Assembly: GCA_017619685.1 (NCBI GenBank)
Contig: JAFZRW010000050.1
Location: 1 to 32,022, forward strand
Length of the DNA: 32,022 bases
Origin: Schwartzia sp. (in: firmicutes)
GTDB taxonomy: Bacteria; Bacillota; Negativicutes; Selenomonadales; Selenomonadaceae
Direction: 5' to 3'
Made by a program: the position numbers and the translations under genes. Positions 5,932 to 31,229 of the stretch are shown here, in pieces. The number at the start of each line of letters is the position of its first letter. Position 1 is the first letter of the stretch. The notes below the pieces were generated by a model, which was not told the DNA's origin, made no database searches, and worked only from the letters and a program-made list of their open reading frames with translations.

Positions 5932-8442
5932 TTATTTTTTGAGCGCTTCGGCTTTTTCTTTCTCAAGCTGCGCGAGATAGCCGGAAAGGAGACCTTCCTT
6001 CAGTCCGCCGCTCTCTGCGGGGGCCGGTTCCGACGCAGGCGCTTCTGCCGTTTCGGCAGGGTCGAAAAGCTCCGTGGAGGATTCGGCAGATTCGCTGGGC
6101 TCGGCGGCCTTCGCTGCGACATTCGCCGCGGCTTTTTTGGCGATAACGTCCTTCGAGAGCTGAATGTCGACGTCGATGTGGTCGCCGTTCATGATCGGAT
6201 CGGTGAACGTCGCGGGCGTGTCGTTGACTTTGATCGTGACGTGCATCCCGCTGGTCGGTTCCGGCGGCGTGAAGCCCACCGCCATCAGCGCCGTGCTGAC
6301 GAGCGTTGCGCGGCGTTCGGACAGCTCATATTTCACGCTGCACCCTTCGGTGACGATGGTGTTCGCCGTGGCGGGGCGTCCGTTCAGTTCCAGGGACACC
6401 GCCGCAGACGGGATTTTCTTTTCCGCGCCGTTGAAGTAGATCACGAGGCTCGTCTCGTAATCGGAAAGCCCAAGCACTTCGCCGAGTTTCGGATCGTCCG
6501 GCAGATGATACTCGATGCGGTCGCCCTCGTAAATCGTCGTTGAGAGCGTCGTCGGCTCGTCGTTCAGGAGAATCTCCGGAATGCAGGTGAACTGCGTCTC
6601 GGCGCCGTTCAGCTTGTATTTGATTTTCTTTCCCGTCGGCGGGTAGCCGGTGGCCTTCAGCGCTTCGCCGACGCTGCGCGTCTTTTTCGTCGTGACGACG
6701 TCGCCGTCCGCGAGGAGTCGATTCTCGTCCGCGGGTTCGTCGTTCACGAGGAACGCCGCCGCGAGTTTTTTCGGGTTGCCGTTGATATAAAGCGTGTACG
6801 GCTCTTCCTTCGTTTCGAGGACGCTCCCGACGGTCAGCGTCGGCAGCGTGCTTTCGTTGCCCGCCTCGATCTCGATATGCGCGCCGCTCTCGATGATCGT
6901 GTCAAGGTCGGCGGGCGCGCCGTCTACGGTGATGTGGGGGGCGGAGCCAATCGTGCCGGGGAAGAATTTCGCTTCGCCGTCCACTTCGATATGGAGACCG
7001 ACGTCGGTTTCCGTGGCTTCCCGCTGGATCTGGACGCCGGCCGCGAGCAGCGCGTCGGCGACGGTCATGTTGCGGAAATTGAACAGACGGTGTTCCTCGC
7101 CGGAAACGTAAACCGTCAGGAAATGGAGTGTATTCAGCGACGCGATCTTCAAGATGCCGAGCGGCGTCACGGCGTCCGGCTGCATCAATTCCGGCGGCAG
7201 GGCAGAGACGCCGTCGATGGCGTTCGGACGGCGTACGGCAACGCGTTCTACGGGGATTGAGAGCTTGTCCGCCACGAGGGTCGCGAGACGAGGCGTCAGT
7301 GCGCCGCCGCCCACGAGCAGCACCGCCTGCGGCTCGTCGCCGTTCAGGTCGACGATCTGTCGTGCGATGGCGTCGGCGAGCGCCTGAATGGCGGGCATGA
7401 TGGGATCGAGGATTTCGTCGGCCTTCAGATGGTATTCCATGCCGAGAATATCCATGAAATCCACGTCTTTTCCCTCGGCGGCGTCGCGTTTGATGCGCTC
7501 GGCGACGTTGAAGTCGAGCAGGAATTTCTGGCTGATGGCTTCGGTGATTTCATCGCCCGCCTGCGGCACCATGCCGTAAGCGATGACGCTGCCGTTTTTC
7601 GTGATGGCGACGTCGGACGTGCCTGCGCCGATATCGACGAGCACGAGATTCAGATGACGCATGGTCGGCGGGATCAATACGTTGATTGCGGCAATCGGTT
7701 CGAGGGTGACGGCTTTCAAAGAAAGATTCGTCGCCGTGAGCGCCGAGTCCATGGAATCGACGACCTGGCGCGGCAAGAAGGTGGCGATGACGGACGCCTC
7801 GGCATGGGAGCCGCGCTGTCCGACGAGGGATTTCAGCGGAATGCCGTCCAGCGAATACTGGATCGTGCTGTAGCCGACGCAGTAATAGCGCGTCGGATCG
7901 TCAATCTCGGAGGACTCGGCGAGCTTCGCCTGCGCCGCCTGCACGCCAGAAAAATCGAGAAGACGCTCGCCCTCGGCGGTGATGACGCCGGCAAAATCCA
8001 TTTCCGCCTCGGCGGTCATCGTATAAAGCGCGCGGCCTGCGGCGGCAACGGCGACGCTTTTCAGCGGGCCGGTGGACGCTTCCAGTGCGCGCTTGACTTC
8101 GCCGATGACGGCGGCGACCTGCGGCACGTCATGGATCTGGCCGTCGAGCATGGCGCGGGTCTTGTGCTCCCTGCGCGTGGTATCAAGGATCGTCAGCGTA
8201 CCGTCTTCCTCCTGGGCAGCGACAATGCCGATAACGCTTCGCGTGCCGATGTCGAGCGCGAAAATGAGGTCCCGGTTATCTTTGGGCGCAGATTTTTTTG
8301 TTGCGGGTTTATGCGCCGCCGTTTTTTTCGGGGCGCTCTTTTTCGGCGCGGCGACCGCCTTTTCGGCGCCGTTTGCTGCCGTGTCGTTCTTTTTCGTACG
8401 ACGCGTCGCCTTTTTCGGCGCGTCGGCTTTCTCGATTGCCAT
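5932..8442 (-). CDS. FtsA-like actin-fold ATPase with C-terminal 60-residue repeat array
   Basis: An 836-residue protein about twice the length of ordinary FtsA (about 420). Residues 1-55 are a Lys/Ala/Pro-rich tail resembling histone H1 tails. Residues about 58-432 are an FtsA/PilM-type actin fold: ALDIGTRSVIG (phosphate 1), a 1C-like segment ending VAVAAAGRAL, LVDIGAGTSDVAI (phosphate 2) and LLVGGGALTPR (adenosine site). Residues about 443-763 hold a repeat array described under findings. An acidic Ala/Glu/Pro linker and a charged C-terminal helix follow. Start ATG 8442 is preferred over ATG 8451 because the GGAGG lies 10 bases before it and only 1 base before the other. The gene stands alone with its own promoter and terminator. 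FtsA tethers FtsZ to the membrane; whether this protein does so is unknown, and a cell-envelope role is inferred. Confidence 0.85.
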   Translation of the reverse strand: MAIEKADAPKKATRRTKKNDTAANGAEKAVAAPKKSAPKKTAAHKPATKKSAPKDNRDLIFALDIGTRSVIGIVAAQEEDGTLTILDTTRREHKTRAMLDGQIHDVPQVAAVIGEVKRALEASTGPLKSVAVAAAGRALYTMTAEAEMDFAGVITAEGERLLDFSGVQAAQAKLAESSEIDDPTRYYCVGYSTIQYSLDGIPLKSLVGQRGSHAEASVIATFLPRQVVDSMDSALTATNLSLKAVTLEPIAAINVLIPPTMRHLNLVLVDIGAGTSDVAITKNGSVIAYGMVPQAGDEITEAISQKFLLDFNVAERIKRDAAEGKDVDFMDILGMEYHLKADEILDPIMPAIQALADAIARQIVDLNGDEPQAVLLVGGGALTPRLATLVADKLSIPVERVAVRRPNAIDGVSALPPELMQPDAVTPLGILKIASLNTLHFLTVYVSGEEHRLFNFRNMTVADALLAAGVQIQREATETDVGLHIEVDGEAKFFPGTIGSAPHITVDGAPADLDTIIESGAHIEIEAGNESTLPTLTVGSVLETKEEPYTLYINGNPKKLAAAFLVNDEPADENRLLADGDVVTTKKTRSVGEALKATGYPPTGKKIKYKLNGAETQFTCIPEILLNDEPTTLSTTIYEGDRIEYHLPDDPKLGEVLGLSDYETSLVIYFNGAEKKIPSAAVSLELNGRPATANTIVTEGCSVKYELSERRATLVSTALMAVGFTPPEPTSGMHVTIKVNDTPATFTDPIMNGDHIDVDIQLSKDVIAKKAAANVAAKAAEPSESAESSTELFDPAETAEAPASEPAPAESGGLKEGLLSGYLAQLEKEKAEALKK

Positions 8443-8500
8443 AAAATCCATACCTCCAAGTGCTTTCGGTGTTTCCTTTGATTGAACGCTCTATTCGGAT

Positions 8501-10058: not shown

Positions 10059-10181
10059 TTTGCTTGTGCGACAGCCCCTTTGGGGCGGATAGGGCAGGAA
10101 ATTTTAAGCCGTTGTCGAATAAAAAACAAATACAGAAAACAAGGGGAGTCTTCCGTGCATCTGCGACAGGAGGCGGCATCG

Positions 10182-13438
<3,257 letters not shown>

Positions 13439-13442
<4 letters not shown>

Positions 13443-14803
13443 AAAAGCAAAAAGAAACGCGGCTCGTATTGCCGCGCGAGGAATGGCCGTATGAAGTGCC
13501 GAAGAATTGGGTATGGACAACAATCGCATCTATCTTTGATGTAACTTCCAGCAAAAGAGTACATAAAGATGATTGGCTTAAAGAAGGAATACCTTTTTAT
13601 CGCACAAGAGAATTAGTAAAACTCTCAGATTATGGTACAGTTGATAATGAATTATTTATTTCGCGTGAAATGTATGAAGCGTTCAAAAAAAACTTTGGTG
13701 TCCCTCAAATAGGAGATATATTGATTAGTGGAGTTGGAACTATTGGAGTTCCATTTGAAATACAATCAAATGATGAATTTTATTTCAAGGATGGAAACGT
13801 AGTTTGGTTCAAGAAAAAAAAGACAGTTAATTCACGATATATCTACCATCTATATAAAAGTGAGTTCCTGACAAATCAATTACATAATATGTCAGGGGGA
13901 ACCACGGTTGACACATATACTATTGTCAATGCTAAGAGGACCTTAATTCCCCTCCCTCCGCTTCCCGAGCAACAGCGTATCGTCGCCCGTATCGAATCGC
14001 TTTTCTCGAAGCTCGACACCACCGCCGAAAAAATCCGCGCCGCCCTCGACCAATTCCCAATCCGCAAAGCCGCCATTCTGCACAAGGCTTTCACGGGGGA
14101 ACTGACGAAAAAGTGGCGCGAAGAGCACGGAGTGGGGATGGAGAGCTGGGAAAGAAAAACTTTTCAGAATCTCGGTGAAACAAAATTAGGAAAAATGCTG
14201 GACAAGGCCAAAAATCTTGGACACCCCACAAAATATTTGCGAAATATAAATGTTAGGTGGTTCAGCTTTTCGTTTGAGGATGTATTGGAGCTTTTAGCTA
14301 CGGAAGATGAGCGAAAAAAGTTTTCCATTGAAGATGGGGATGTATTGATTTGTGAAGGCGGCGAGCCAGGACGTTGCGCTGTATGGACAAATGGACCAAA
14401 TACGTTCATCTATCAAAAAGCATTGCACCGTTTTCGCCCATATCCTGATAATTTAAGCCAATTTATAGCATATAATCTATATTATCTGAGTATTAGCGGT
14501 AAATTGGAATCTTATTATACCGGCACAACAATTAAGCACTTAACAGGAAAGTCATTGGCAAAACTTTCTGTTCCTGTTCCCACGCTCCCCGAACAAAAAG
14601 AAATCGTCCGTATCCTTGACGTTATTTTCGATCGCGAGCAGAAAGCGAAGGAAGCCGCCGAGCACCTGCTCGAAAACATCGACCTTACAAAAAAATCCAT
14701 CCTCGCCCGCGCCTTCCGAGGCAAACTTGGAACGAACGACCCGAAGGAAGCAAGCGCGGAAGGATTGCTGAAATACTCATATCATAAGGAGGTTTCAAAA
14801 TGA
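13439..14803 (+). CDS. hsdS: Type I restriction-modification specificity subunit
   Basis: HsdS sets the DNA target for both methylation and cleavage. The 454 residues show the classic two-fold layout: TRD1 about 20-165, a central conserved helical region (LPPLPEQQRIVARIESLFSK) about 169-235, TRD2 about 238-380, and a second conserved region (TLPEQKEIVRILDVIF) about 381-440. The conserved regions are GC-rich, whereas both TRDs (bases about 13511-13945 and 14151-14580) are strikingly AT-rich, as expected from domain exchange. The start is TTG 13439, overlapping the hsdR stop as TTGA with GGAGGAG about 8 bases upstream. The stop overlaps the next gene as ATGA. The target sequence cannot be read from the protein. 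Confidence 0.92.
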
Positions 14804-16047
14804 ATCGAACACATGAAAATAATTTACCAAAACTGCCTATTCCATATAAACTGACTGAAATATTCATAGACAATTTTAAGACATTCGATGATTCTCATAT
14901 TTATTTCTCAAAAGATATGACTGTTTTCGTCGGAGATAATGCTTCAGGGAAAAGCTCTATCCTGCAGGCATTAACCTTTTTGAAATATTGTTGCACCTCC
15001 ACGGTAGATGACTTTATGAAAGACCGTAGAATGAACGCAGATGATCTTGCTTCAAAGTTATTTCCAAAATTTCAAAAAAATATTACTTTTAGTTTAGAAT
15101 TTGAAAGCGAACAGAAACCTTTAGATAGCCTTTCTTGGATGATTACTTTCGTGGTCAATAAAACAGACAATAAAATAACATTACGTTCAGAAAAAATAAC
15201 ATGGCCATCTATATATAATGTAAAGTCACAGATGATCTTATATTACGATTCAAAAGAAGGTTTTCGACAGAATGAACGAGACAATAAAGGGGAATCCATC
15301 CCTGTAGGCGAGTATTCTTCTTCGCTGATCCGTTTTATTGATGAAAAACAGCGCGAGCAATTTCCACACCTCTACGCCATTAAGCATTTCTTTTTGGAAA
15401 CGGAGCCGTTAGACTTGCTCACACCAAAGGACATGAGACGAAGCGCTCGTGGGCAGGAACGTTCTTTAGGATTTAGCGGTGAAAAATTGCCGAATCTCAT
15501 TTACAAATTGAATGGAAATGAAAGAGAAACATTATTAAATACATTGACTAGAGTGCTTCCTAAAATGAAATCTGTAAGATCAGTGCGTTCCGGCTCAGGA
15601 CGGGCAGGATGGGCACATTTGGAAACCATAGAGCAGTTCAATGAGCACCCTATCACGGTTCAATCCGGTGGAATCAGCGACGGCGTTTTGCGCCTTGTAG
15701 CTTTATTTGCGTTGCCGTTCCTGAACAAAAGCGGCGGCGTCATTTTGCTGGACGAGGTAGAGGACGGAATCAACTCCAGCAACATTGCAATTCTTATGGA
15801 GTTTTTGCGGGAGTATAGCAAAAACAATGGGCAGCAAATTATTCTGACTACGCACAGCACTGTTTTGTTAGACTATGCAAAACCGGAGGAAATTCGTTGC
15901 CTATATCGAGATATAAACGGCTTTACCCAATGTGTAAACTTTTTAGACCTAAAAGACATCAAGGAAGAATTAGCTTATCTCTATCCGGGTGAAGCAATGC
16001 TGAATCGTGGAAAGGATTTTATGAAAGGCTTCACGGAGGAACGCTGA
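14800..16047 (+). CDS. AAA/ABC-type ATPase (AAA15/AAA21, RloA-like) embedded in the restriction operon
   Basis: A 415-residue SMC/ABC-like ATPase. It begins with ITEIF-type strands (LTEIFIDNFKTFDD), then Walker A GDNASGKSS (45-53), a signature-like QSGGISDGVLRL (288-299), Walker B VILLDEVEDG (314-323) and the H-loop LTTHST (349-354). This order is that of the OLD/AAA15/AAA21 families, whose members occur in abortive-infection systems such as RloA, AriA of PARIS and OLD. No nuclease domain is fused to it. Its start overlaps the hsdS stop (ATGA), and its TGA shares a base with the ATG of the TOPRIM-like gene, so the pair is translationally coupled. It is AT-rich compared with hsdR and hsdM. A phage-sensing role is inferred from the family and context. 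Confidence 0.85.
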   Translation: MNRTHENNLPKLPIPYKLTEIFIDNFKTFDDSHIYFSKDMTVFVGDNASGKSSILQALTFLKYCCTSTVDDFMKDRRMNADDLASKLFPKFQKNITFSLEFESEQKPLDSLSWMITFVVNKTDNKITLRSEKITWPSIYNVKSQMILYYDSKEGFRQNERDNKGESIPVGEYSSSLIRFIDEKQREQFPHLYAIKHFFLETEPLDLLTPKDMRRSARGQERSLGFSGEKLPNLIYKLNGNERETLLNTLTRVLPKMKSVRSVRSGSGRAGWAHLETIEQFNEHPITVQSGGISDGVLRLVALFALPFLNKSGGVILLDEVEDGINSSNIAILMEFLREYSKNNGQQIILTTHSTVLLDYAKPEEIRCLYRDINGFTQCVNFLDLKDIKEELAYLYPGEAMLNRGKDFMKGFTEER

Positions 16048-16805
16048 TGTTAAAACTTTTATTGCAGGGAGAAGGCCCGACGGATTGTGGAACTGTAAAT
16101 TATCAAACGGGAACTATAGAGGAAGGCCCCGTTCAGATATTTATTCGCAAAATCCTTGGAGAAACAGACGTAACCATGAACCTGTTCCCACGCTCGGAAA
16201 TGGAACTAAGCTCGCCCAAACACAGAAGGATTCGGTTGCAACCTCACAACCGGAATCTGAAAGGACATGGAATCCGCGCATATCTTTTGAGCATTGAGGC
16301 AATGCGACAAAAATGCGACGGAGGCATGTTATATGTCGACGCTGATAAGGAAAGCGGTGTCGACGCACGAAAAGAATCCGCATGTCAAAAAAGATACGAC
16401 GAGATAAAAACAGATATTCTTCGTGGTTTTCAGGCGAAAGAACTCCGCGGCGTTGCCGCAATCCCCATGAAGATGATCGAAAGCTGGATGATAGGGGACG
16501 AAAAAGCGCTTCCAAAGGCTTTCGGAGGAATTCGACAGTCCAAGCACAAGAAGGACAATCAAAAAGGAGCTGTTGAATCGTGTCCTGCAAAGCCGGAATT
16601 AGATTGGGGAGATAAGGCTAACCCAAGCAGTAATTATCCTAAGAATCGGTTATCCCGGATATTATCCGCGTATAATCGAGAAGCTTGTCGGGAAGTCTTT
16701 TGCGAAATAGCGAAAAATGCTGACATTACAACGCTTCGCAAGACTTGCCCCATCAGTTTCGATGATTTCCACAATCAACTCATAGCATTACGAAAGGAAA
16801 TATGA
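16047..16805 (+). CDS. TOPRIM-like protein (DUF4276/RloB type), likely effector partner of the ATPase
   Basis: A 252-residue protein with a TOPRIM-like pattern: an N-terminal strand ending in Glu (LLLQGEGPTD, E9), then LYVDADKES with D98 and D100, and AAIPMKMIESWMIGD at about 137-151, which is characteristic of DUF4276-like proteins. The end reads CPISFDDFHNQL. TOPRIM proteins coordinate metal through these acidic residues and are often nucleases. In PARIS the AAA ATPase AriA holds the TOPRIM protein AriB, and in Campylobacter hsd loci RloA and RloB occur together. This pair has the same layout. The family assignment rests on motifs only. The gene overlaps the ATPase by one base and ends TGA one base before the next ATG. 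It is AT-rich like its partner. Confidence 0.7.
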   Translation: MLKLLLQGEGPTDCGTVNYQTGTIEEGPVQIFIRKILGETDVTMNLFPRSEMELSSPKHRRIRLQPHNRNLKGHGIRAYLLSIEAMRQKCDGGMLYVDADKESGVDARKESACQKRYDEIKTDILRGFQAKELRGVAAIPMKMIESWMIGDEKALPKAFGGIRQSKHKKDNQKGAVESCPAKPELDWGDKANPSSNYPKNRLSRILSAYNREACREVFCEIAKNADITTLRKTCPISFDDFHNQLIALRKEI

Positions 16806-16806
16806 A

Positions 16807-17088
16807 ATGAATAATACCATCATCAGCGATGGACCATACAATATGAATCCGCTTCTCCATCAATTATTTTCTGCACTGGTAAATCAAAGCATTATCAACC
16901 AAAGACAACGAACGGTCATCTTGCCAAAAGGCCAACAAGAGGCATTAAATAAGATTTTAGAAGCGTTACACGATTTCAATGAGAATTGGTCAAAAATTGA
17001 ACCTGCATTTAAACCGATTGCTTTCGAGGAAAGCATATTAAAAATCGCTTCCGAAATTGGATGGATTATTGAAAGGAACCAACCATGA
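16807..17088 (+). CDS. Small unknown protein of the restriction-operon insert
   Basis: A 93-residue protein that I do not recognise. It has no signal peptide or membrane segment. The middle (KGQQEALNKILEALHDFNENW) and the end (FEESILKIASEIGWIIE) look helical. It starts one base after the TOPRIM-like stop, and its TGA overlaps the hsdM ATG as ATGA, so it is translated from the same message. AT-rich composition matches the ATPase and TOPRIM-like genes and not hsdM, so it probably arrived with that module. It could be a regulator, an inhibitor of the effector, or simply the coupling piece that keeps hsdM translated; nothing in the sequence decides. Confidence 0.6.
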   Translation: MNNTIISDGPYNMNPLLHQLFSALVNQSIINQRQRTVILPKGQQEALNKILEALHDFNENWSKIEPAFKPIAFEESILKIASEIGWIIERNQP

Positions 17089-18500
17089 CCACGCAGGAAA
17101 TCGTGCAAAAGCTCTGGAACCTCTGCAACGTGCTTCGGGACGACGGCATCACCTATCATCAGTACGTCACCGAGCTGACCTATATCCTGTTCCTGAAAAT
17201 GGCGAAGGAAACGGGTTCGGAGAAGGACATTCCCGAGGGCTGGCGCTGGGATGACCTGACCGCGAAAAGCGGCGTCGCGCTGAAAAGTTACTACAAGAAG
17301 CTCCTGACGCAGCTCGGCGAGCATTCCACGGGGCGCATCCGCGAAATATATCAGGGCGCGTCCACGAACATTGACGAACCGAAGAACCTCGAAAAGATCA
17401 TCACCTCCATCGACGCCCTCGACTGGTTCTCCGCCCGTGAGGAAGGGCTTGGCAATCTCTACGAAGGGCTTTTGGAGAAGAACGCCAACGAGAAGAAATC
17501 CGGCGCAGGCCAATATTTTACGCCCCGCCCGCTCATCGACGTGATGACGCGGCTGATGAAGCCGCAACCCGGCGAACGGTGCAACGATCCGGCCTGCGGC
17601 ACATTCGGCTTCATGCTTGCCGCGAGCCGATACGTGCGCGAGCACACGGACGACTTTTTCGACCTTGACGCCGACATGGCAACTTTCGAGAAAAACGAAG
17701 CGTTCACGGGCTGCGAGCTTGTCCATGACGCGCACCGCCTCGCTCTGATGAACGCCATGCTTCACGACGTCAACGGAAAGATTTTCCTTGCCGACACGCT
17801 TTCCAACGTGGGCAAGCAAATGAAGGGCTACGACCTCGTGCTGACGAATCCGCCCTTCGGCACGAAGAAAGGCGGCGAGCGCGCGACCCGCGACGATTTC
17901 ACGTTCCCGACGAGCAACAAGCAGCTCAATTTTCTCCAGCACATCTACCGCAGCCTGAAAGCCGACGGCAAAGCGCGTGCTGCCGTCGTACTGCCGGACA
18001 ACGTGCTTTTCGCCGACGGCGACGGCGCGAAAATCCGCGCCGACCTGATGGACAAATGCGACCTCCATACCGTCCTGCGTTTGCCTACGGGCATTTTCTA
18101 CGCGCAGGGCGTCAAGACGAACGTGCTGTTCTTCACGCGGGGCAAGACCGACAAGGGCAACACCAAGGAAGTCTGGTTCTATGACCTTCGGACGAATATG
18201 CCCTCCTTCGGCAAGACGAATCCGCTGAAAACGGAGCATTTCAAAAATATCGAGGCTGCCTTTGAAGCGAAAGATCGCCATACGGTCAAAGATGAACGGT
18301 TCAGCGTCTTCACCCGGGACGAGATTCGCGCGAAGGGCGACAGCCTCGACCTCGGCCTGATTCGCGACGATTCGGTGCTGGATTACGACGATCTCCCCGA
18401 TCCTGTCGAAAGCTGTGAAGAGACTATCGCTCAGTTGGAGGAAGCAACCGGGCTTTTGATGGACGTGGTAAAGGAACTGAAATCGCTTCGCGCTTCTTAA
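17085..18500 (+). CDS. hsdM: Type I restriction-modification DNA methyltransferase subunit (N6-adenine)
   Basis: HsdM methylates adenine in the HsdS-defined target, using S-adenosylmethionine. The 471 residues show the N-terminal helical HsdM domain (VQKLWNLCNVLRDDGITYHQY), the linker GAGQYFTPRPLIDVM, the SAM-binding motif DPACGTFGF at about 168, the catalytic NPPFG at about 255, and a C-terminal helical segment for HsdS contact. All key residues are present, so it should be active. The gene is GC-rich like hsdR and overlaps the small upstream gene by 4 bp. Its position last, after the foreign-looking module, separates it from hsdS and makes its translation depend on the module genes. A strong terminator follows. 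Confidence 0.95.
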   Translation: MTTQEIVQKLWNLCNVLRDDGITYHQYVTELTYILFLKMAKETGSEKDIPEGWRWDDLTAKSGVALKSYYKKLLTQLGEHSTGRIREIYQGASTNIDEPKNLEKIITSIDALDWFSAREEGLGNLYEGLLEKNANEKKSGAGQYFTPRPLIDVMTRLMKPQPGERCNDPACGTFGFMLAASRYVREHTDDFFDLDADMATFEKNEAFTGCELVHDAHRLALMNAMLHDVNGKIFLADTLSNVGKQMKGYDLVLTNPPFGTKKGGERATRDDFTFPTSNKQLNFLQHIYRSLKADGKARAAVVLPDNVLFADGDGAKIRADLMDKCDLHTVLRLPTGIFYAQGVKTNVLFFTRGKTDKGNTKEVWFYDLRTNMPSFGKTNPLKTEHFKNIEAAFEAKDRHTVKDERFSVFTRDEIRAKGDSLDLGLIRDDSVLDYDDLPDPVESCEETIAQLEEATGLLMDVVKELKSLRAS

Positions 18501-20558: not shown

Positions 20559-21488
20559 ATGAAGGAAGAAAACGCGGCCCTTGATCCCGGCGCGCGGGCG
20601 GCGGCAGAGCAAAAGGCGCGCAAGGCTGCGCGCGACGCTTCGCGAAAGACCGGAGCGGAGGAAACGACCGCTGAGAAAGGCGCGATCGCGCCGCCCTGGG
20701 AGCGCGGCGCGGAGGGAATCGAGCTCGTCGACACTCACGCCCATATCGACGGGGAAGACTTCGACGGCGACCGCGAGGAAATGCTGGACCGCGCGAAAGC
20801 GGCGGGCGTCGTGGCCGTCGTGACCTTCGGCGACACGATGGAATCTTCAGCGCGCTGCGTCGCTCTTGCGTCGTCCCATGAAGCCGTTTTCGCGGGCGTC
20901 GGCGTCCATCCGGAAAACGCGTTCCCGCTTTCGCAGGCGGAGGAAGATCGTCTCGCCGCGTGGACGAAGGAGAAGAACGTCGTCGCGATCGGCGAGATCG
21001 GGCTTGACTATTACTGGGAAAAGGACGAGGAAAAGCGCGCGCTCCAGCGGAAAATGTTCTCGCGTCAGCTTGCGCTGGCCCGCGACCTCGATTTGCCCGT
21101 CTGTATCCACGACCGGGAAGCCCACGGCGATCTGATGACGATCCTGAAGACCGAGGGACGGAAAAATCGCGGCGTGATCCACTGCTTTTCGGGAAGCTGG
21201 GAAATGGCGAAGGAGCTTTTGAAGCTCGGGTGGTACATCGGCATCGACGGCCCGCTGACTTACAAGAATGCGGCGAAGCTGCCGGAAATCGTGGAGAAAA
21301 TGCCTGCCGACCGTCTGCTGGTCGAAACGGACTGCCCGTATCTTTCGCCGCTTCCGTATCGCGGGAAACGAAACGAGCCCGCATACGTCCGGATTACGGC
21401 GGAACGTGCGGCCCAGATTCGCGGGGAAAGCATAGAAGCTCTTGCCGCGCAGACGACGAAAAACGCCCGTATGGTGTACGGACTGTAA
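20559..21488 (+). CDS. tatD: TatD-family metal-dependent hydrolase/DNase with N-terminal extension
   Basis: A 309-residue TatD/YcfH-type hydrolase; family members are TIM-barrel metal-dependent 3'-exonucleases. Ligands are visible: DTHAHID (H60, H62), GEIGLDYY (E146), CIHDREAH (H184), IHCFSGS (H208) and VETDCPYLSP (D258). Ordinary members are about 255 residues and begin right at the LVDTHAHID strand. Here about 53 extra residues precede it, rich in Ala, Arg, Lys and Glu. No usable start codon with a ribosome site lies close to the barrel start, so the extension is probably translated. It is coupled to metG by a one-base gap. The symbol follows the broad family name; yabD or ycfH would also be used. 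Confidence 0.9.
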   Translation: MKEENAALDPGARAAAEQKARKAARDASRKTGAEETTAEKGAIAPPWERGAEGIELVDTHAHIDGEDFDGDREEMLDRAKAAGVVAVVTFGDTMESSARCVALASSHEAVFAGVGVHPENAFPLSQAEEDRLAAWTKEKNVVAIGEIGLDYYWEKDEEKRALQRKMFSRQLALARDLDLPVCIHDREAHGDLMTILKTEGRKNRGVIHCFSGSWEMAKELLKLGWYIGIDGPLTYKNAAKLPEIVEKMPADRLLVETDCPYLSPLPYRGKRNEPAYVRITAERAAQIRGESIEALAAQTTKNARMVYGL

Positions 21489-21526: not shown

Positions 21527-21569
21527 AAAAAATGGAGGAAGAAAATCGGTTTTTCTTCCTCCATTTTTT
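21527..21569. terminator. Bidirectional intrinsic terminator between tatD and the diguanylate cyclase
   Basis: A 19-bp perfect stem (AAAAAATGGAGGAAGAAAA and its complement) with a TCGGT loop has T-runs on both strands, serving tatD from the left and the convergent gene ending at 21579 from the right. Confidence 0.9.
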
Positions 21570-21578
21570 GTGGGTATA

Positions 21579-22748
21579 TTATTCTTCTTCAGCCGACATG
21601 CGCGGACACGAATACCGGACGAAGTTCGCCTTGCCGTTCTTCTTGGCGGCGTAAAGCGCTTTGTCGGCCAGCGAGTAAAGCTCCCGGAAGCCGCAATGGG
21701 CCTCGCCGATGCCCACGCCGATGCTGCACGTCAGATGGCTGGCTTCGCCGATCTTCCGGCTGCAAAGCTTCTCCAGGATTTCCCGTGAGCGTTCGTCTAT
21801 CCGCGTGAGAGGTTCGTCTGCCGGGATCGGCATGAGAACCATGAATTCGTCGCCACCGACCCGGCCAAGGATGTCGGAGGAGCGGAAGGACTGCGTCAGA
21901 ATTTCCGCAAAGGATTTCAGGAGCTCGTCGCCCGTTTGGTGGCCGTACTTGTCGTTGACCTGCTTGAAGTCGTCGAGGTCGATGATGAAGAGCGCGGACA
22001 TTTCGCCGTCTTTTTGGTGGGCGAGGTACCCGGCCGCCTCGTATTCGAAGGTGAGCTTGTTATATAAGCCCGACAGGAGATCCTGACGGCTCTTGTCGGT
22101 CGCTTCCGAGTATTTTCGCGCAAACCAGTTTGCCTGACAGAAAATGAAGGCCAGTACCGCAACGAGCACCAGCAGCATGGCGGCGACCGTCGTCAGGACG
22201 TAATGGCGGAGCGCGGATTCAAGGCCATCCGCGGATTGCGAAGCCATCAGCGCTCCGACCACGGCGTCGTCGCTCTCCTGCCGGATGGGGATCACATACG
22301 CCTGGCACGACTCCCCGTTAATCATGATATGGCGGCACCAAAGCTGTTTCCCCTCCTGGAGGGTGTGCGTCAGGATCGCGTCGTCCGCAGGCAGCCCGAT
22401 ACAGCGGTTCTCATCTTTGTCATGGATGGACGTCATGATCGCCGTCTTGCCGAAATAAAAGGTGAAGTCGGTGCCCGTCTGCTTTTTCAGGTCGTCGACG
22501 ATGGAAGTCTTTTGCGAGATATTGACATTCATGCCGCGCCAGACATAGCCGTCTTCCTGACGACGGTAATCGCCATAGCCCTGACTGGAATAAAAGGCCA
22601 GGGCGGCCATGGCCGCGGAGCGCAGATTTCCTTCCTTTTCGTTGTACAGGTTCGTCCGAAACTGCGTGAGGCCGAGGATCAGAGCAATCGAGGCGAAGAT
22701 GAGCAGCGGCAGGCAGTTCGATAGTAAGAGTTTAGTTCGGAATTTCAT
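21579..22748 (-). CDS. Membrane sensor diguanylate cyclase
   Basis: Makes cyclic di-GMP from two GTP. The 389 residues contain TM1 (7-28), an extracytoplasmic sensor of about 150 residues (29-182, single-Cache-like in size and position), TM2 (183-205) and a GGDEF domain. The metal/substrate residues are in IIDLDDFKQVNDKYGH, the active site is GGDEF at 298-302, and the inhibitory I-site is RSSD at 289-292, five residues before it. The cyclase therefore looks active and feedback-controlled. Its ATG overlaps the stop of the upstream binding-protein gene by 4 bp (22745-22748), so both are made together. This suggests the binding protein feeds ligand information to the sensor domain. Confidence 0.92.
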   Translation of the reverse strand: MKFRTKLLLSNCLPLLIFASIALILGLTQFRTNLYNEKEGNLRSAAMAALAFYSSQGYGDYRRQEDGYVWRGMNVNISQKTSIVDDLKKQTGTDFTFYFGKTAIMTSIHDKDENRCIGLPADDAILTHTLQEGKQLWCRHIMINGESCQAYVIPIRQESDDAVVGALMASQSADGLESALRHYVLTTVAAMLLVLVAVLAFIFCQANWFARKYSEATDKSRQDLLSGLYNKLTFEYEAAGYLAHQKDGEMSALFIIDLDDFKQVNDKYGHQTGDELLKSFAEILTQSFRSSDILGRVGGDEFMVLMPIPADEPLTRIDERSREILEKLCSRKIGEASHLTCSIGVGIGEAHCGFRELYSLADKALYAAKKNGKANFVRYSCPRMSAEEE

Positions 22749-23722
22749 AACTGCTCCTTTGTAACCGCGGAAACGCCCGTATCGGTCACGTCGCCGTTGC
22801 CCGTGTATTCTCCCTTGAGCGCGCGGACGGCGAGCACGAGACCGTCATGCCCCATCTTTTCCGGCTTTTGCTGCATGGTCGCATAGATGACGCCCTCCTG
22901 GATCATGGAAAGGGTGTAGTCGGACGTGTCGAAACCGATGACGATCTGATGCGTACCGGATTCACGGACCTGCTCGCCGACAGCCTGCGTCATCTGTTCG
23001 TTCGCCCCGAAGAAACCGACGTATTCCGGATGCACCTTTACGCTGTCCTTGACGTCCTGCCGGTCGGAGCGCATATAAATGGTCGGCGCTATCGTAAAGT
23101 GCGTGTTCCTGAATATCGAGCGGAAGCCGTTGATTCGCAGAATCGTGTTCTGGGCTTGCTGATTCATCGCCACGATGCCGATCGTACCTGAAGAAATGCC
23201 CGCTTCGTAAAGCGCCTGCCGCATGGCCGCTCCGGCGACGCGACCGGCCTGTTCGTTATCCGTCATCAGGGTGGCAGCCGCTTTCTCGGTGGCGGCGCTG
23301 TCCACATACACGATCTTAACGCCTGCCGCTTTCGCTTTTCGCAGATTCTCGTTCACTTCCGTCTGCGATACGGCGGAAAGCAGAATCGCCTGCGCGCCTT
23401 CAGCAACGGCCCTGTCGATGCACTTTTTCTGTTCCGCGACGGAACGGACGGCGGGCGCAATCCATTGATAGTCGATCTTTCCCAGTTCTTCTGCCGCCTG
23501 TCGGCAGCCGGCGTCGATATTTTGCCAGTAAGTGCTGCCCTGATCCATAGTGATGAGGAAAATCTTGTATTGGGAATTATCTGCGGCCGGGCGTTTGCCT
23601 TCCCGTTTGGTGGAGTCCTCGCGCACTACGATATCCGGTTCCTCGGCCAGGGCGTAGTTGCCCAGCAGGAACGCGAACACGACCGCGAGGACGGCGCTCG
23701 CCGCCCAAAATATCTTTTTCAT
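22745..23722 (-). CDS. Periplasmic sugar-type binding protein (RbsB-like) paired with the diguanylate cyclase
   Basis: A 325-residue type I periplasmic binding protein (Peripla_BP_4, ribose/galactose/AI-2 class). An N-terminal signal peptide or anchor (KKIFWAASAVLAVVFAFLLG) ends NYALA-EE, a plausible signal peptidase I site without a lipobox Cys. The mature part begins KIFLITMDQGSTYWQNIDAG and has EGAQAILLSAV, GVKIVYVDS and QIVIGFDTS, the usual hinge and ligand strands. The ATG at 23722 is preferred over 23728 because AGGA lies 7 bases before it. No ABC permease or ATPase gene is adjacent, which is unusual for a solute-binding protein. It is translationally coupled to a membrane diguanylate cyclase, so a co-receptor role like LuxP or TorT is inferred. 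The ligand is unknown. Confidence 0.88.
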   Translation of the reverse strand: MKKIFWAASAVLAVVFAFLLGNYALAEEPDIVVREDSTKREGKRPAADNSQYKIFLITMDQGSTYWQNIDAGCRQAAEELGKIDYQWIAPAVRSVAEQKKCIDRAVAEGAQAILLSAVSQTEVNENLRKAKAAGVKIVYVDSAATEKAAATLMTDNEQAGRVAGAAMRQALYEAGISSGTIGIVAMNQQAQNTILRINGFRSIFRNTHFTIAPTIYMRSDRQDVKDSVKVHPEYVGFFGANEQMTQAVGEQVRESGTHQIVIGFDTSDYTLSMIQEGVIYATMQQKPEKMGHDGLVLAVRALKGEYTGNGDVTDTGVSAVTKEQL

Positions 23723-23864
23723 TTCCATATCCTGAATCGCCTCACGCGTTATTCCATAATTGTTTTAGCAATATACAACCACTTTTTATATGCTTCTTTT
23801 ATGAAATTTGGGAGGAAAGTATGAAGAAATGGAGACGATAGGACGACGATAGACGACGACGGCA

Positions 23865-23918
23865 CAGAAAAAAGGCGGCGCATGAAGAGCGTTCCCTTCA
23901 TGCGCCGTGCCTTTTCTG
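23865..23918 (-). terminator. Intrinsic terminator after bioY
   Basis: GGCGCATGAAG pairs with CTTCATGCGCC, extended outward by AAAAGGC/GCCTTTT with a small bulge. The minus strand continues CCTTTTTTCTG. It separates bioY from the binding-protein gene. Confidence 0.8.
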
Positions 23919-23948: not shown

Positions 23949-24491
23949 TTACGCCGTTCCCAGCATATTGTTCACGCGCACGCCGAGAGCCGACGCCGCG
24001 AAGCATTTCAAAAGATCGCCGGGAATGAACGGCACGACGGCAATCATCATTGCCTGCCCCAGCGATACGTCCATCCAGAGCATCAGCGACGCGAGGCCGC
24101 CCACATAGGTCAGCGGCATTCCGACGACGATGTCGACCAACGCGTAGCGGCGAAAATTCGGCGTCGCGCCTTTCAGCGCGCTGACCAGAGGATAGACGAG
24201 AAGCCAAATCAGAATGAAGCCGCCTGTCGGCCCGAAGAGCTTTCCGGAACCGGACGTGCCGCCCGTCAGGACGGGCAGACCGCAAAGCCCAAGCAGGATG
24301 TAGACCGCGACGGCCACAAAGGTTTCCCTCGGCGTCAGCACGAAAGCGGTCACGCCCAGCGCCAGCGTCAGGGCCGAGACCATGCTCAGCGTGAACGGCA
24401 GCGGGAACGAGAGATAGGCGGCCACGCAGAGGAGCGCCACGCAAAGCGCGATCTTCGTAATCGACCGCGCCGAAAAATGTCGTTCGTTCAT
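23949..24491 (-). CDS. bioY: Biotin ECF transporter S component
   Basis: A 180-residue integral membrane protein with about six hydrophobic segments that captures biotin for uptake by an energy-coupling-factor transporter. The BioY hallmark is the region GSGKLFGPTGGFILIWLLVY, where the GPTGG turn is diagnostic. The N-terminus reads SITKIALCVALLCVAAYLSF. ATG 24491 is chosen over an in-frame ATG 18 codons upstream because AGGAAAGGAAG lies about 10 bases before it and the upstream codon falls inside the promoter. No ecfA/T or biotin-synthesis genes are adjacent, so it presumably uses shared ECF modules elsewhere. Expression is probably controlled by BirA (see the operator). Confidence 0.93.
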   Translation of the reverse strand: MNERHFSARSITKIALCVALLCVAAYLSFPLPFTLSMVSALTLALGVTAFVLTPRETFVAVAVYILLGLCGLPVLTGGTSGSGKLFGPTGGFILIWLLVYPLVSALKGATPNFRRYALVDIVVGMPLTYVGGLASLMLWMDVSLGQAMMIAVVPFIPGDLLKCFAASALGVRVNNMLGTA

Positions 24492-24524
24492 TCCAAATAC
24501 TTCCTTTCCTATAAACGCACTTAC

Positions 24525-24552
24525 ATTATATAAGAGTATATCCATTTGTCAA
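24525..24552 (-). promoter_or_regulatory. Consensus promoter of bioY
   Basis: The minus strand has a perfect TTGACA (24552-24547) and a perfect TATAAT (24530-24525) with a 16-bp spacer, about 33 bp before the bioY start. Confidence 0.85.
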
Positions 24553-29684: not shown

Positions 29685-31229
29685 ATGGACGATCGCTTGA
29701 CAAGGCGCTGCGTGCTCCTTTTTGTCTCCTTCATGCTGCTGTTTTACGGCGCAATGATATTTCTTCCCGATTGGGCGGGGCCGGTGTCGAATGCGGGCAG
29801 TATCCTCGGGGACGCGCTTTCGATGGCGATCATGGCGGCGGGACTGCGCCGCTGGCCGGAAAGCCGTCGGCTCGCGTGGAAGCTCTTTCTCGCCGGCATC
29901 GCCGTCTATATGGTCGGGGACATGGTCTGGGTGTATGAGGAAGAAGTTCTCGGCCTCGAAGTGGAATCACCGTCGATTCCCGATTTCTTTTACCTTTCGA
30001 GTACACTGGTCTGTTTTTTCGCGCTTCTCCGGTATATCCATGACGAGAAGACCATCGACATTGCGACGGCGGGCTTCGATATCCTGATTTCCATCGTCGC
30101 CAGCGCCGGTCTTCTTTACAATTATGTCATGCTTCCGGTGTCGAGCTTCAAGGAGATGGGCTTTTGGCAGGCGGCGGTCATGATGGCCTATCCCGTGGCG
30201 GACTGCGTGTATCTCCTGGGCATGTTCTCGCTGATCTTCGGCATGGGGCGGCGTCGGGCGCGGAACGGCAGGAACTTCCTGCTGGGCGCGGGTCTCTTCG
30301 TGATGTTCCTCGCAGATCAGACGTATTTGGTCAAGTCCATCACCGAGTATGTGTCCGGCGGGCTGCTCGATCCCGTCTGGTCGATGAGCTTTGGGCTGAT
30401 AGCGCTGGCGTCGCTTCGGGTGCCGGATTGGGAGGAGATGGCGGAGGAAGACACGGAAGCCGCGCCGTGGCTCGAATACCTGCGGATGCTGCTGCCGTAT
30501 CTTTTGACGGTTCTAATTTTGCTTCTGGTCGGCATGGAGTATGGGCTGATTGGCAGCCCCTTCTTCGTCGGAGCACTGCTGCTTATGATGCTTTTGAGCG
30601 TACGGCAGGTCGTCGTGCTGATCGGCAACCGAAAGCTGCTTTCGGTCATTTCCGAGAATGAGCGGGAGCTGCACAAGAAGAATCTGGAACTGCAGAAGCT
30701 GAACCATCATTTCATGACGGAGTCCGAGACGGACTTCCTGACGAAGCTTTTGAACCGACGCGCGATCGTGCAGGCATTCGAGCGCCTGAAGCCCATCGGC
30801 AACGAGCCGGAGACGCTGGGGCTTTTGCTCGTGGACGTCGATTATTTCAAGAAGGTCAACGACACCTTTGGGCACCAGAAGGGCGACGAGGCGCTGGTCG
30901 GCGTGGCGGAGTCGATCCGGCACACGATTCGAGGCGACGATCTCGGCGGCCGGTTCGGCGGCGACGAATTCCTCGTGCTGCTGCCGGGAGCGAACGGTGA
31001 TGCGGTGGAAAGGGTGGCGGAGCGGCTTCGGGCTGCGGCGGCGAAAAATGAGACGCTGGCGGAGATGAAAGTGACGCTTTCCATTGGCGGGGCGAGCTGG
31101 AGCGTCGGAATAGACGACTATCGGCCAAACAAATTGATGCGCCACGCGGACGAAGCGCTCTATGTAGCGAAGGAAAAAGGGCGCAACTGTTTCGTGATGT
31201 ACCGTGAGGGACTGGAAGACGAAATCTGA
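29685..31229 (+). CDS. Multi-pass membrane diguanylate cyclase
   Basis: A 514-residue cyclic di-GMP synthase. Residues about 1-320 hold some eight hydrophobic segments (for example RRCVLLFVSFMLLFYGAMIF and LLPYLLTVLILLLVGMEYG) forming an unclassified membrane sensor region. A coiled-coil linker (ENERELHKKNLELQKLNHH) and a GGDEF domain follow. LVDVDYFKKVNDTFGHQKGD carries the metal/substrate residues, the active site is GGDEF at about 425-429, and the I-site RGDD lies five residues before it. All catalytic residues are present. ATG 29685 has AGGAGGGGAG upstream. The membrane region resembles MASE-type sensors, but I cannot name a specific family. Confidence 0.92.
   Translation: MDDRLTRRCVLLFVSFMLLFYGAMIFLPDWAGPVSNAGSILGDALSMAIMAAGLRRWPESRRLAWKLFLAGIAVYMVGDMVWVYEEEVLGLEVESPSIPDFFYLSSTLVCFFALLRYIHDEKTIDIATAGFDILISIVASAGLLYNYVMLPVSSFKEMGFWQAAVMMAYPVADCVYLLGMFSLIFGMGRRRARNGRNFLLGAGLFVMFLADQTYLVKSITEYVSGGLLDPVWSMSFGLIALASLRVPDWEEMAEEDTEAAPWLEYLRMLLPYLLTVLILLLVGMEYGLIGSPFFVGALLLMMLLSVRQVVVLIGNRKLLSVISENERELHKKNLELQKLNHHFMTESETDFLTKLLNRRAIVQAFERLKPIGNEPETLGLLLVDVDYFKKVNDTFGHQKGDEALVGVAESIRHTIRGDDLGGRFGGDEFLVLLPGANGDAVERVAERLRAAAAKNETLAEMKVTLSIGGASWSVGIDDYRPNKLMRHADEALYVAKEKGRNCFVMYREGLEDEI

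Follow-up and report, generated by a model that had tools for sequence, protein, structure and literature searches.

Does a solute-binding protein (SBP) whose gene overlaps that of a membrane GGDEF protein still serve a transporter, or does it act as the ligand-bearing half of a receptor that sets cyclic di-GMP (c-di-GMP)? The question is raised by a gene pair in the window, by which is meant the whole stretch of DNA analysed here, 32,022 nt from Schwartzia sp. (Selenomonadaceae; GCA_017619685.1, contig JAFZRW010000050.1, positions 1-32,022, forward strand). The SBP gene lies upstream of the cyclase gene, and the locus is laid out as follows:

22745..23728, minus strand: SBP of the sugar type (Peripla_BP_4), 327 aa, with an alternative start at 23722
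21579..22748, minus strand: predicted membrane diguanylate cyclase, 389 aa, arranged TM-sCache_3_3-TM-GGDEF
22745..22748, minus strand: ATGA overlap, 4 bp shared by the SBP stop and the cyclase start
23949-24545, minus strand: bioY, a neighbour of the pair
20559-21488, plus strand: tatD, a neighbour of the pair, convergent with the cyclase gene
23876..23907, minus strand: strong terminator-like hairpin (14 pairs) 3' of bioY, which sets bioY apart from the SBP-cyclase unit
21534..21562, both strands: terminator-like hairpin between the cyclase gene and the convergent tatD

The 4-bp overlap described in an earlier sequence-only reading of this DNA is borne out by the ATGA at 22745-22748, and the statement in that reading that no permease or ABC ATPase lies nearby holds across the whole window, in which HMMs for the CUT2 permease and the RbsA ATPase found no match. 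The SBP start that it placed at 23722 is the second Met (residue 3), and the open reading frame extends to 23728. The pair occurs in a single copy in the window's genome. Comparison of the window with two congeners gave dN values of 0.10-0.16 and dS values of 0.76-1.22 for both genes, and both are under strong purifying selection. A fused SBP-cyclase product made by stop read-through was considered and set aside because the C-terminus of the SBP and the N-terminus of the cyclase lie on opposite sides of the membrane.

The SBP matches Pfam Peripla_BP_4 with an E-value of 3.6e-40 (138.6 bits; cut-off 35.1), and its AlphaFold2 model (pLDDT 91, pTM 0.79) aligns with the 50 solved chains listed at Z 27-33. 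The nearest folds among these chains are the glucose/xylose, arabinose, and glucose-galactose binding proteins together with XylFII (Z 29-33), and most of the nearest solved structures are of proteins that bind glucose, galactose, xylose, or arabinose. Two segments of the protein bear on its function:

23645..23728, minus strand: putative N-terminal signal or anchor segment, residues 1-28, without a lipobox Cys, unlike most orthologues
22754..23569, minus strand: two-lobed sugar-binding domain, residues 54-325, with W68, D143, R198, N243, D267, and Q287

These six residues are presumably the sugar contacts, an assignment that we carry over from ribose-binding protein. W68, D143, R198, D267, and Q287 are kept in 27 of 27 cyclase-linked and 33 of 33 SBPs linked to methyl-accepting chemotaxis proteins (MCPs), N243 is kept in 26 of the 27 cyclase-linked SBPs, and an alignment with glucose-bound 2h3h has W, D, R, D, and Q in common with the pocket and nothing further. 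Judged by these residues the sugar pocket looks intact and the SBP still looks able to bind sugar. Signalling and transporter SBPs differ at positions 121, 219, 230, 268, and 286, among others. The absence of the lipobox Cys, read by eye, extends to the congeners, and a possible cleavage site (A-L-A before E) in the window's SBP is absent from the two congeners; the lipobox pattern scan misses clear lipoboxes (CGC, PGC, MACG) and served as a guide only.

The protein had earlier been called a ribose/AI-2-type binding protein. The sugar part of that description agrees with the Pfam match and the folds, and the AI-2 part does not stand, as the LsrB model scored 36.2 bits against a curated cut-off of 384. 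Identity with TorT was rejected on the same kind of evidence (27.5 bits against a cut-off of 200, and 25.3 against 310). The ligand is probably a hexose: transporter-linked relatives adjoin genes for PFK, mannose-6-phosphate isomerase, and FGGY kinase, and a paralogue is linked to a phosphotransferase (PTS) operon. Such gene neighbours point towards a hexose but do not fix the ligand.

The cyclase combines an sCache_3_3 domain (3.7e-18, residues 76-180; 66.3 bits against a cut-off of 28.8), which agrees with the extracytoplasmic sensor attributed to it earlier, with a GGDEF domain (1.2e-36), and its AlphaFold2 model is fair (pLDDT 84, pTM 0.49). Its parts are placed as follows:

22200..22667, minus strand: extracytoplasmic Cache sensor, residues 28-183, placed by alignment with 8py0_B
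22440..22442, minus strand: codon for Ala103, which occupies the place of the formate-anchoring Arg in sCache_3_3
21630..22085, minus strand: GGDEF catalytic domain, residues 222-373 (Pfam)
21843..21884, minus strand: RSSDILGRVGGDEF, with the RxxD inhibitory site and the GGDEF active-site motif

By its motifs the protein is a diguanylate cyclase with an intact active site and an RxxD inhibitory site, and the GGDEF motif is invariant in the 26-row cyclase alignment. The sCache_3_3 domain is likewise found in 26 of 26 cyclases of this kind in the family, and the sensor columns (mean identity 68%) and the cyclase as a whole (64%) are equally conserved.

Conservation of the pair was examined in 189 Selenomonadaceae genomes (an order-level search gave the same 189), with SBP matches accepted at E <= 1e-20. 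Matches were found at 35 places in 25 genomes. A cyclase lies directly downstream at 26 of these places, with a gap of -4 to +31 bp (25 junctions plus that of the window), and a further 4 places are extra SBPs in tandem upstream (L043, L044, and L048), so that 30 of the 35 fall in SBP-cyclase clusters. The remaining 5 comprise one that belongs to a PTS operon of the fructose type (L052), two with neither cyclase nor transporter alongside (L057 and L058), and two in which the SBP gene is cut off by the contig end (L059 and L060). The three tandem loci belong to one genus (g15), in which two or three divergent SBP genes precede a single cyclase gene and the upstream copies form a clade of their own in the SBP tree. 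The paralogue at L052:7191-8138, a lipoprotein, sits inside an operon of the order PfkB kinase, EIIA-EIIB, SBP, EIIA-EIIB-EIIC, and a PTS operon is an unusual partner for a binding protein.

The pairing also holds when it is read from the sensor side. A sensor profile (A3) gave 26 strong matches (339-389 bits) in 23 genomes, the next score being 124 bits; because A3 was built from SBP neighbours, and because the patterns of the species scan described below need WRGMN or GYGDY, outlying sensors may be missed. All 26 strong matches among the 189 family genomes belong to SBP-paired cyclases, and the SBP gene is immediately upstream in each. Chance adjacency or an annotation artefact is ruled out by this pairing in 26 of 26 family loci. 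The pair is patchily spread, being present in 23 of the 189 family genomes, most of which are metagenome-assembled genomes (MAGs).

A scan of 84,980 species with the patterns DGx[VI]WRGMN and Y[ST][SG][HQR]GYGDY recovered 61 loci: 25 SBP-cyclase loci from rumen and other Selenomonadaceae, a Selenomonadaceae-type locus with a truncated receptor in a MAG named Treponema (L148), and 35 loci of a Lachnospiraceae type, which brings in a second family of gut bacteria. The last are found in Roseburia, Blautia, Kineothrix, Mobilisporobacter, and others, and include one in a MAG named Muribaculaceae (L169); the contigs of L148 and L169 are probably mis-binned. In 34 of the 35 Lachnospiraceae-type loci a receptor with the same sensor lies just downstream of the SBP gene, and all 33 full-length receptors of this type that were scanned combine sCache_3_3 with MCPsignal. 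Thus, the same SBP and the same sensor occur with either a chemoreceptor or a cyclase output, which indicates that the constant link is that of SBP to sensor and that the output has been swapped.

These lines of evidence make it likely that the pair is a ligand-bearing co-receptor system that sets c-di-GMP, that is, a two-protein membrane receptor. The co-receptor proposal of the sequence-only reading is thus backed by the 26 of 26 pairing, by the sensor linkage across the output swap, and by the loss of the Cache Arg described below; the kind of system was very probably named correctly, and the two genes very probably form one sensor of outside sugar. The docking, ligand identity, and direction of effect that we infer are as follows. 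Outside the inner membrane the SBP would bind a sugar, probably a hexose, and in this loaded state it would dock on the Cache domain of the cyclase. Docking would change the Cache dimer and TM2 and hence the activity of the GGDEF domain, with c-di-GMP most likely raised by the loaded SBP. The SBP itself would derive from a CUT2 ABC transporter, having been coupled first to a Cache chemoreceptor and later, together with the sensor of that receptor, to a GGDEF domain. A more far-reaching version, for which we consider the prospects evenly balanced, is that a formate-sensing Cache domain was turned into an SBP-docking receptor, that the input was moved whole from chemotaxis to c-di-GMP, and that in one genus a single cyclase integrates several sugars through two to three SBPs. 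The same complex could also work with the opposite sign, an empty SBP keeping the cyclase active (or inhibiting it) and sugar bringing about release. Sequence neither fixes the sign nor furnishes a point against this arrangement, which is possible, if somewhat doubtful.

The Cache domain bears on a second alternative, namely that it senses a small molecule of its own and that the SBP has an accessory role and does not bind it. Direct binding of formate by sCache_3_3 domains is documented (PMC12415202; 8py0), and in the cyclase model the Cache portion aligns with 8py0_B, a formate-bound chemoreceptor domain, at Z 18.4 (rmsd 2.4, 151 residues aligned). The formate residues reported for PacF are R142, T145, and T158 (PMC12501870), a spacing that recurs in 8py0 and corresponds to positions 103, 106, and 119 of the cyclase. 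These positions were compared in 61 non-identical SBP-type sensors (26 from cyclases, 32 long MCP-type, and 3 truncated) and in 14 relatives outside this group, the latter count being reached after one broken frame of L187 was dropped. Thr106 is kept in all 61 SBP-type sensors, as a domain with its own ligand might be expected to show, but at position 103 each of the 61 has Ala, Pro, Val, or Ser in place of Arg, and Thr119 is present in 14 and replaced in 47. The Arg-x2-Thr-x12-Thr formate site of sCache_3_3 sensors is thus absent from all 61 SBP-type sensors, and the outside relatives have the Arg in 14 of 14 cases and Thr119 in 12. The Cache domain therefore appears, from these alignments, to have given up its own formate-type site. 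In addition, SBP and sensor remain together in two bacterial families and with two outputs, and an independent small-molecule sensor is accordingly judged very unlikely.

It should be added that 2 of the 14 outside relatives, both of which keep the Arg, adjoin an SBP of another family, Bmp, so that loss of the Arg is no rule for all SBP neighbours. In these two loci a Bmp (PnrA-like) SBP lies beside a related sCache receptor (L189:6272-7459 with L189:4526-6262, and L190:7291-8520 with L190:5532-7277), a further SBP-Cache association in the same family, independent of the first.

Under the preferred reading, in which the SBP docks on the Cache domain, a contact surface might be sought among residues that are fixed in SBP-type sensors and not in others. 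G57, Y58, W70, R71, M73, and N74 are among these, and they lie just after the first long helix; the G57-N74 cluster would represent the membrane-distal end of the sensor and is a candidate docking face. Across the 26 pairs, SBP distances correlate with Cache distances at r 0.87 and with GGDEF distances at 0.81; the partial correlation is 0.62 for SBP and Cache given GGDEF and 0.40 for SBP and GGDEF given Cache, and none of 5000 permutations gave SBP-Cache values as high. These correlations agree with contact between SBP and Cache, and shared descent can also give them.

A third alternative is that the SBP is still a transport protein with ABC partners elsewhere in the genome and that the cyclase is merely co-transcribed. 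It draws on the ancestry of the SBP and on the fact that most SBP orthologues look like lipoproteins, which is common for the SBPs of transporters. In a phylum-wide survey of 398 genomes, close SBPs (E <= 1e-50) were found in 8 genomes besides the window's own, all outside Selenomonadaceae, and these 8 SBPs, more distant relatives that fall outside the paired clade, lie without exception in loci with CUT2 ABC genes; one such operon (L209) also holds a LytS-type kinase and an AraC-type response regulator. This setting of the distant relatives suggests that the co-receptor role is derived. Near the SBP gene, CUT2 permease or RbsA ATPase genes were found in 0 of 31 family regions. The earlier expectation that orthologues mostly adjacent to ABC permeases would speak against a co-receptor therefore fails to apply to the paired group and describes its distant relatives. 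Intermediate arrangements exist: Kineothrix (L186) has ABC genes, SBP, and chemoreceptor all together, and Mobilisporobacter (L185) has chemoreceptor and ABC genes with no SBP beside the receptor in the stretch examined. These two are the only CUT2-bearing loci among the 31 family regions and the 61 loci of the species scan. In an SBP tree of 76 rows made by a quick method, 67 paired and derived rows separate from those linked to transporters (SH-aLRT 97); within the 67, 34 rows make up a cyclase clade (support 100) that also takes in the PTS-linked and orphan rows on long branches. The order suggested by this tree is transporter, then chemoreceptor, then cyclase.

An unlinked cognate transporter was sought among the PF02653 permeases of the 25 SBP carriers. 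These are LivH/LivM-like pairs, with one more in four genomes, where permease type was assigned by family models in G135 only and by score and paired position in the other carriers, a 79-residue fragment in G062 being left out. The completest carrier, G135 (100% complete), has three PF02653 permeases, one LivH-like, one LivM-like, and one beside a TrpX-type protein; none was called a sugar permease above cut-off by the family models, and no CUT2 permease was found in this genome. No PF02653 permease was detected in G121, G122, or G123, though each carries at least two SBPs in tandem. An unlinked transporter was rejected on these grounds, and continued service in transport is highly unlikely. 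That the two genes travel together through duplication or gene transfer with no functional contact, as the patchy spread of the pair might suggest, is the most improbable of the alternatives, given the same adjacency with unrelated output domains, the tandem SBPs upstream of one cyclase, and the strong purifying selection on both genes.

The favoured co-receptor reading has several precedents. NspS belongs to the PotD type and MbaA combines GGDEF with EAL; ArtI has a further role in an ABC transporter, and its gene is not linked to that of STM1987; the LytS receptor of XylFII is a histidine kinase; and LuxP-LuxQ and TorT-TorS, in which ligand-bearing binding proteins are co-receptors of histidine kinases, respond to AI-2 and TMAO, respectively. 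From the last two the Schwartzia pair differs in that its SBP falls below the LsrB and TorT cut-offs and its output is GGDEF. Activation of cyclases by SBPs is an accepted mechanism, and in NspS-MbaA of Vibrio cholerae, found also in Sinorhizobium meliloti, an SBP likewise controls a membrane c-di-GMP enzyme (PMC9602780). That system differs in its polyamine ligand, the Schwartzia pair consisting of a sugar-type SBP (Peripla_BP_4) and an sCache_3_3-GGDEF protein that lacks EAL. In ArtI-STM1987 of Salmonella, the binding protein and the periplasmic domain of the cyclase are both reported to be required for a nutrient response, there to l-arginine and through a dCache_1 domain (PMC8846402). XylFII-LytS of Clostridium resembles the pair in that a sugar SBP is bound to the extracytoplasmic domain of a receptor, and the SBP aligns with XylFII (5xsd_B) at Z 31.3 (rmsd 2.7, 266 aligned; 5xsj was matched by sequence); however, the LytS sensor is described as a four-helix bundle (PMC9769921) and the Schwartzia sensor is a Cache domain. 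The formate chemoreceptor 8py0 shares the fold of the cyclase sensor but keeps the Arg-x2-Thr formate spacing. In Salmonella, AI-2 is reported to act on the cyclase YeaJ directly, without LsrB (PMC9637222), and in gut bacteria most of the sCache_3_3 domains studied have assigned ligands, formate being among the commonest Cache ligands (PMC12415202). In the open-access literature no paper was found that describes the pairing of an SBP with an sCache_3_3 cyclase.

Signalling from SBP to cyclase is therefore already known, and a sugar-type SBP with an sCache_3_3 cyclase is a new variant, with most of its interest lying in how it evolved, in the loss of the Cache site, and in the tandem SBPs. It offers a traceable case in which a transport protein would have become a c-di-GMP input, with older stages still present in living bacteria in the form of the ABC operon, ABC genes with a chemoreceptor, and the chemoreceptor alone. 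If the reading is right, rumen sugar availability would be tied directly to c-di-GMP, a field with few known sugar receptors. Loss of the Cache ligand Arg may also provide a simple sequence sign with which to find Cache receptors that listen to a protein and not to a small molecule.

As for the cell in which the pair would operate, the window's genome has 13 GGDEF matches and 6 MCP matches, and the number of GGDEF matches indicates that c-di-GMP is very probably made. PilZ had no match in the window's genome, and a PilZ protein was not found in G000 or G135. A second GGDEF protein of 514 aa is encoded in the window at 29685-31229 (plus strand).

Elsewhere in the window, positions 10080-18500 hold a Type I restriction-modification island in the order HsdR, HsdS, AAA_21 ATPase, one open reading frame, and HsdM, and positions 5932-8451 encode an 839-aa protein with matches to FtsA/PilM-like ATPases. 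A sigma-70-like promoter with a perfect 12/12 match precedes bioY at 24525-24552, and this stretch, we presume, might hold a biotin operator.
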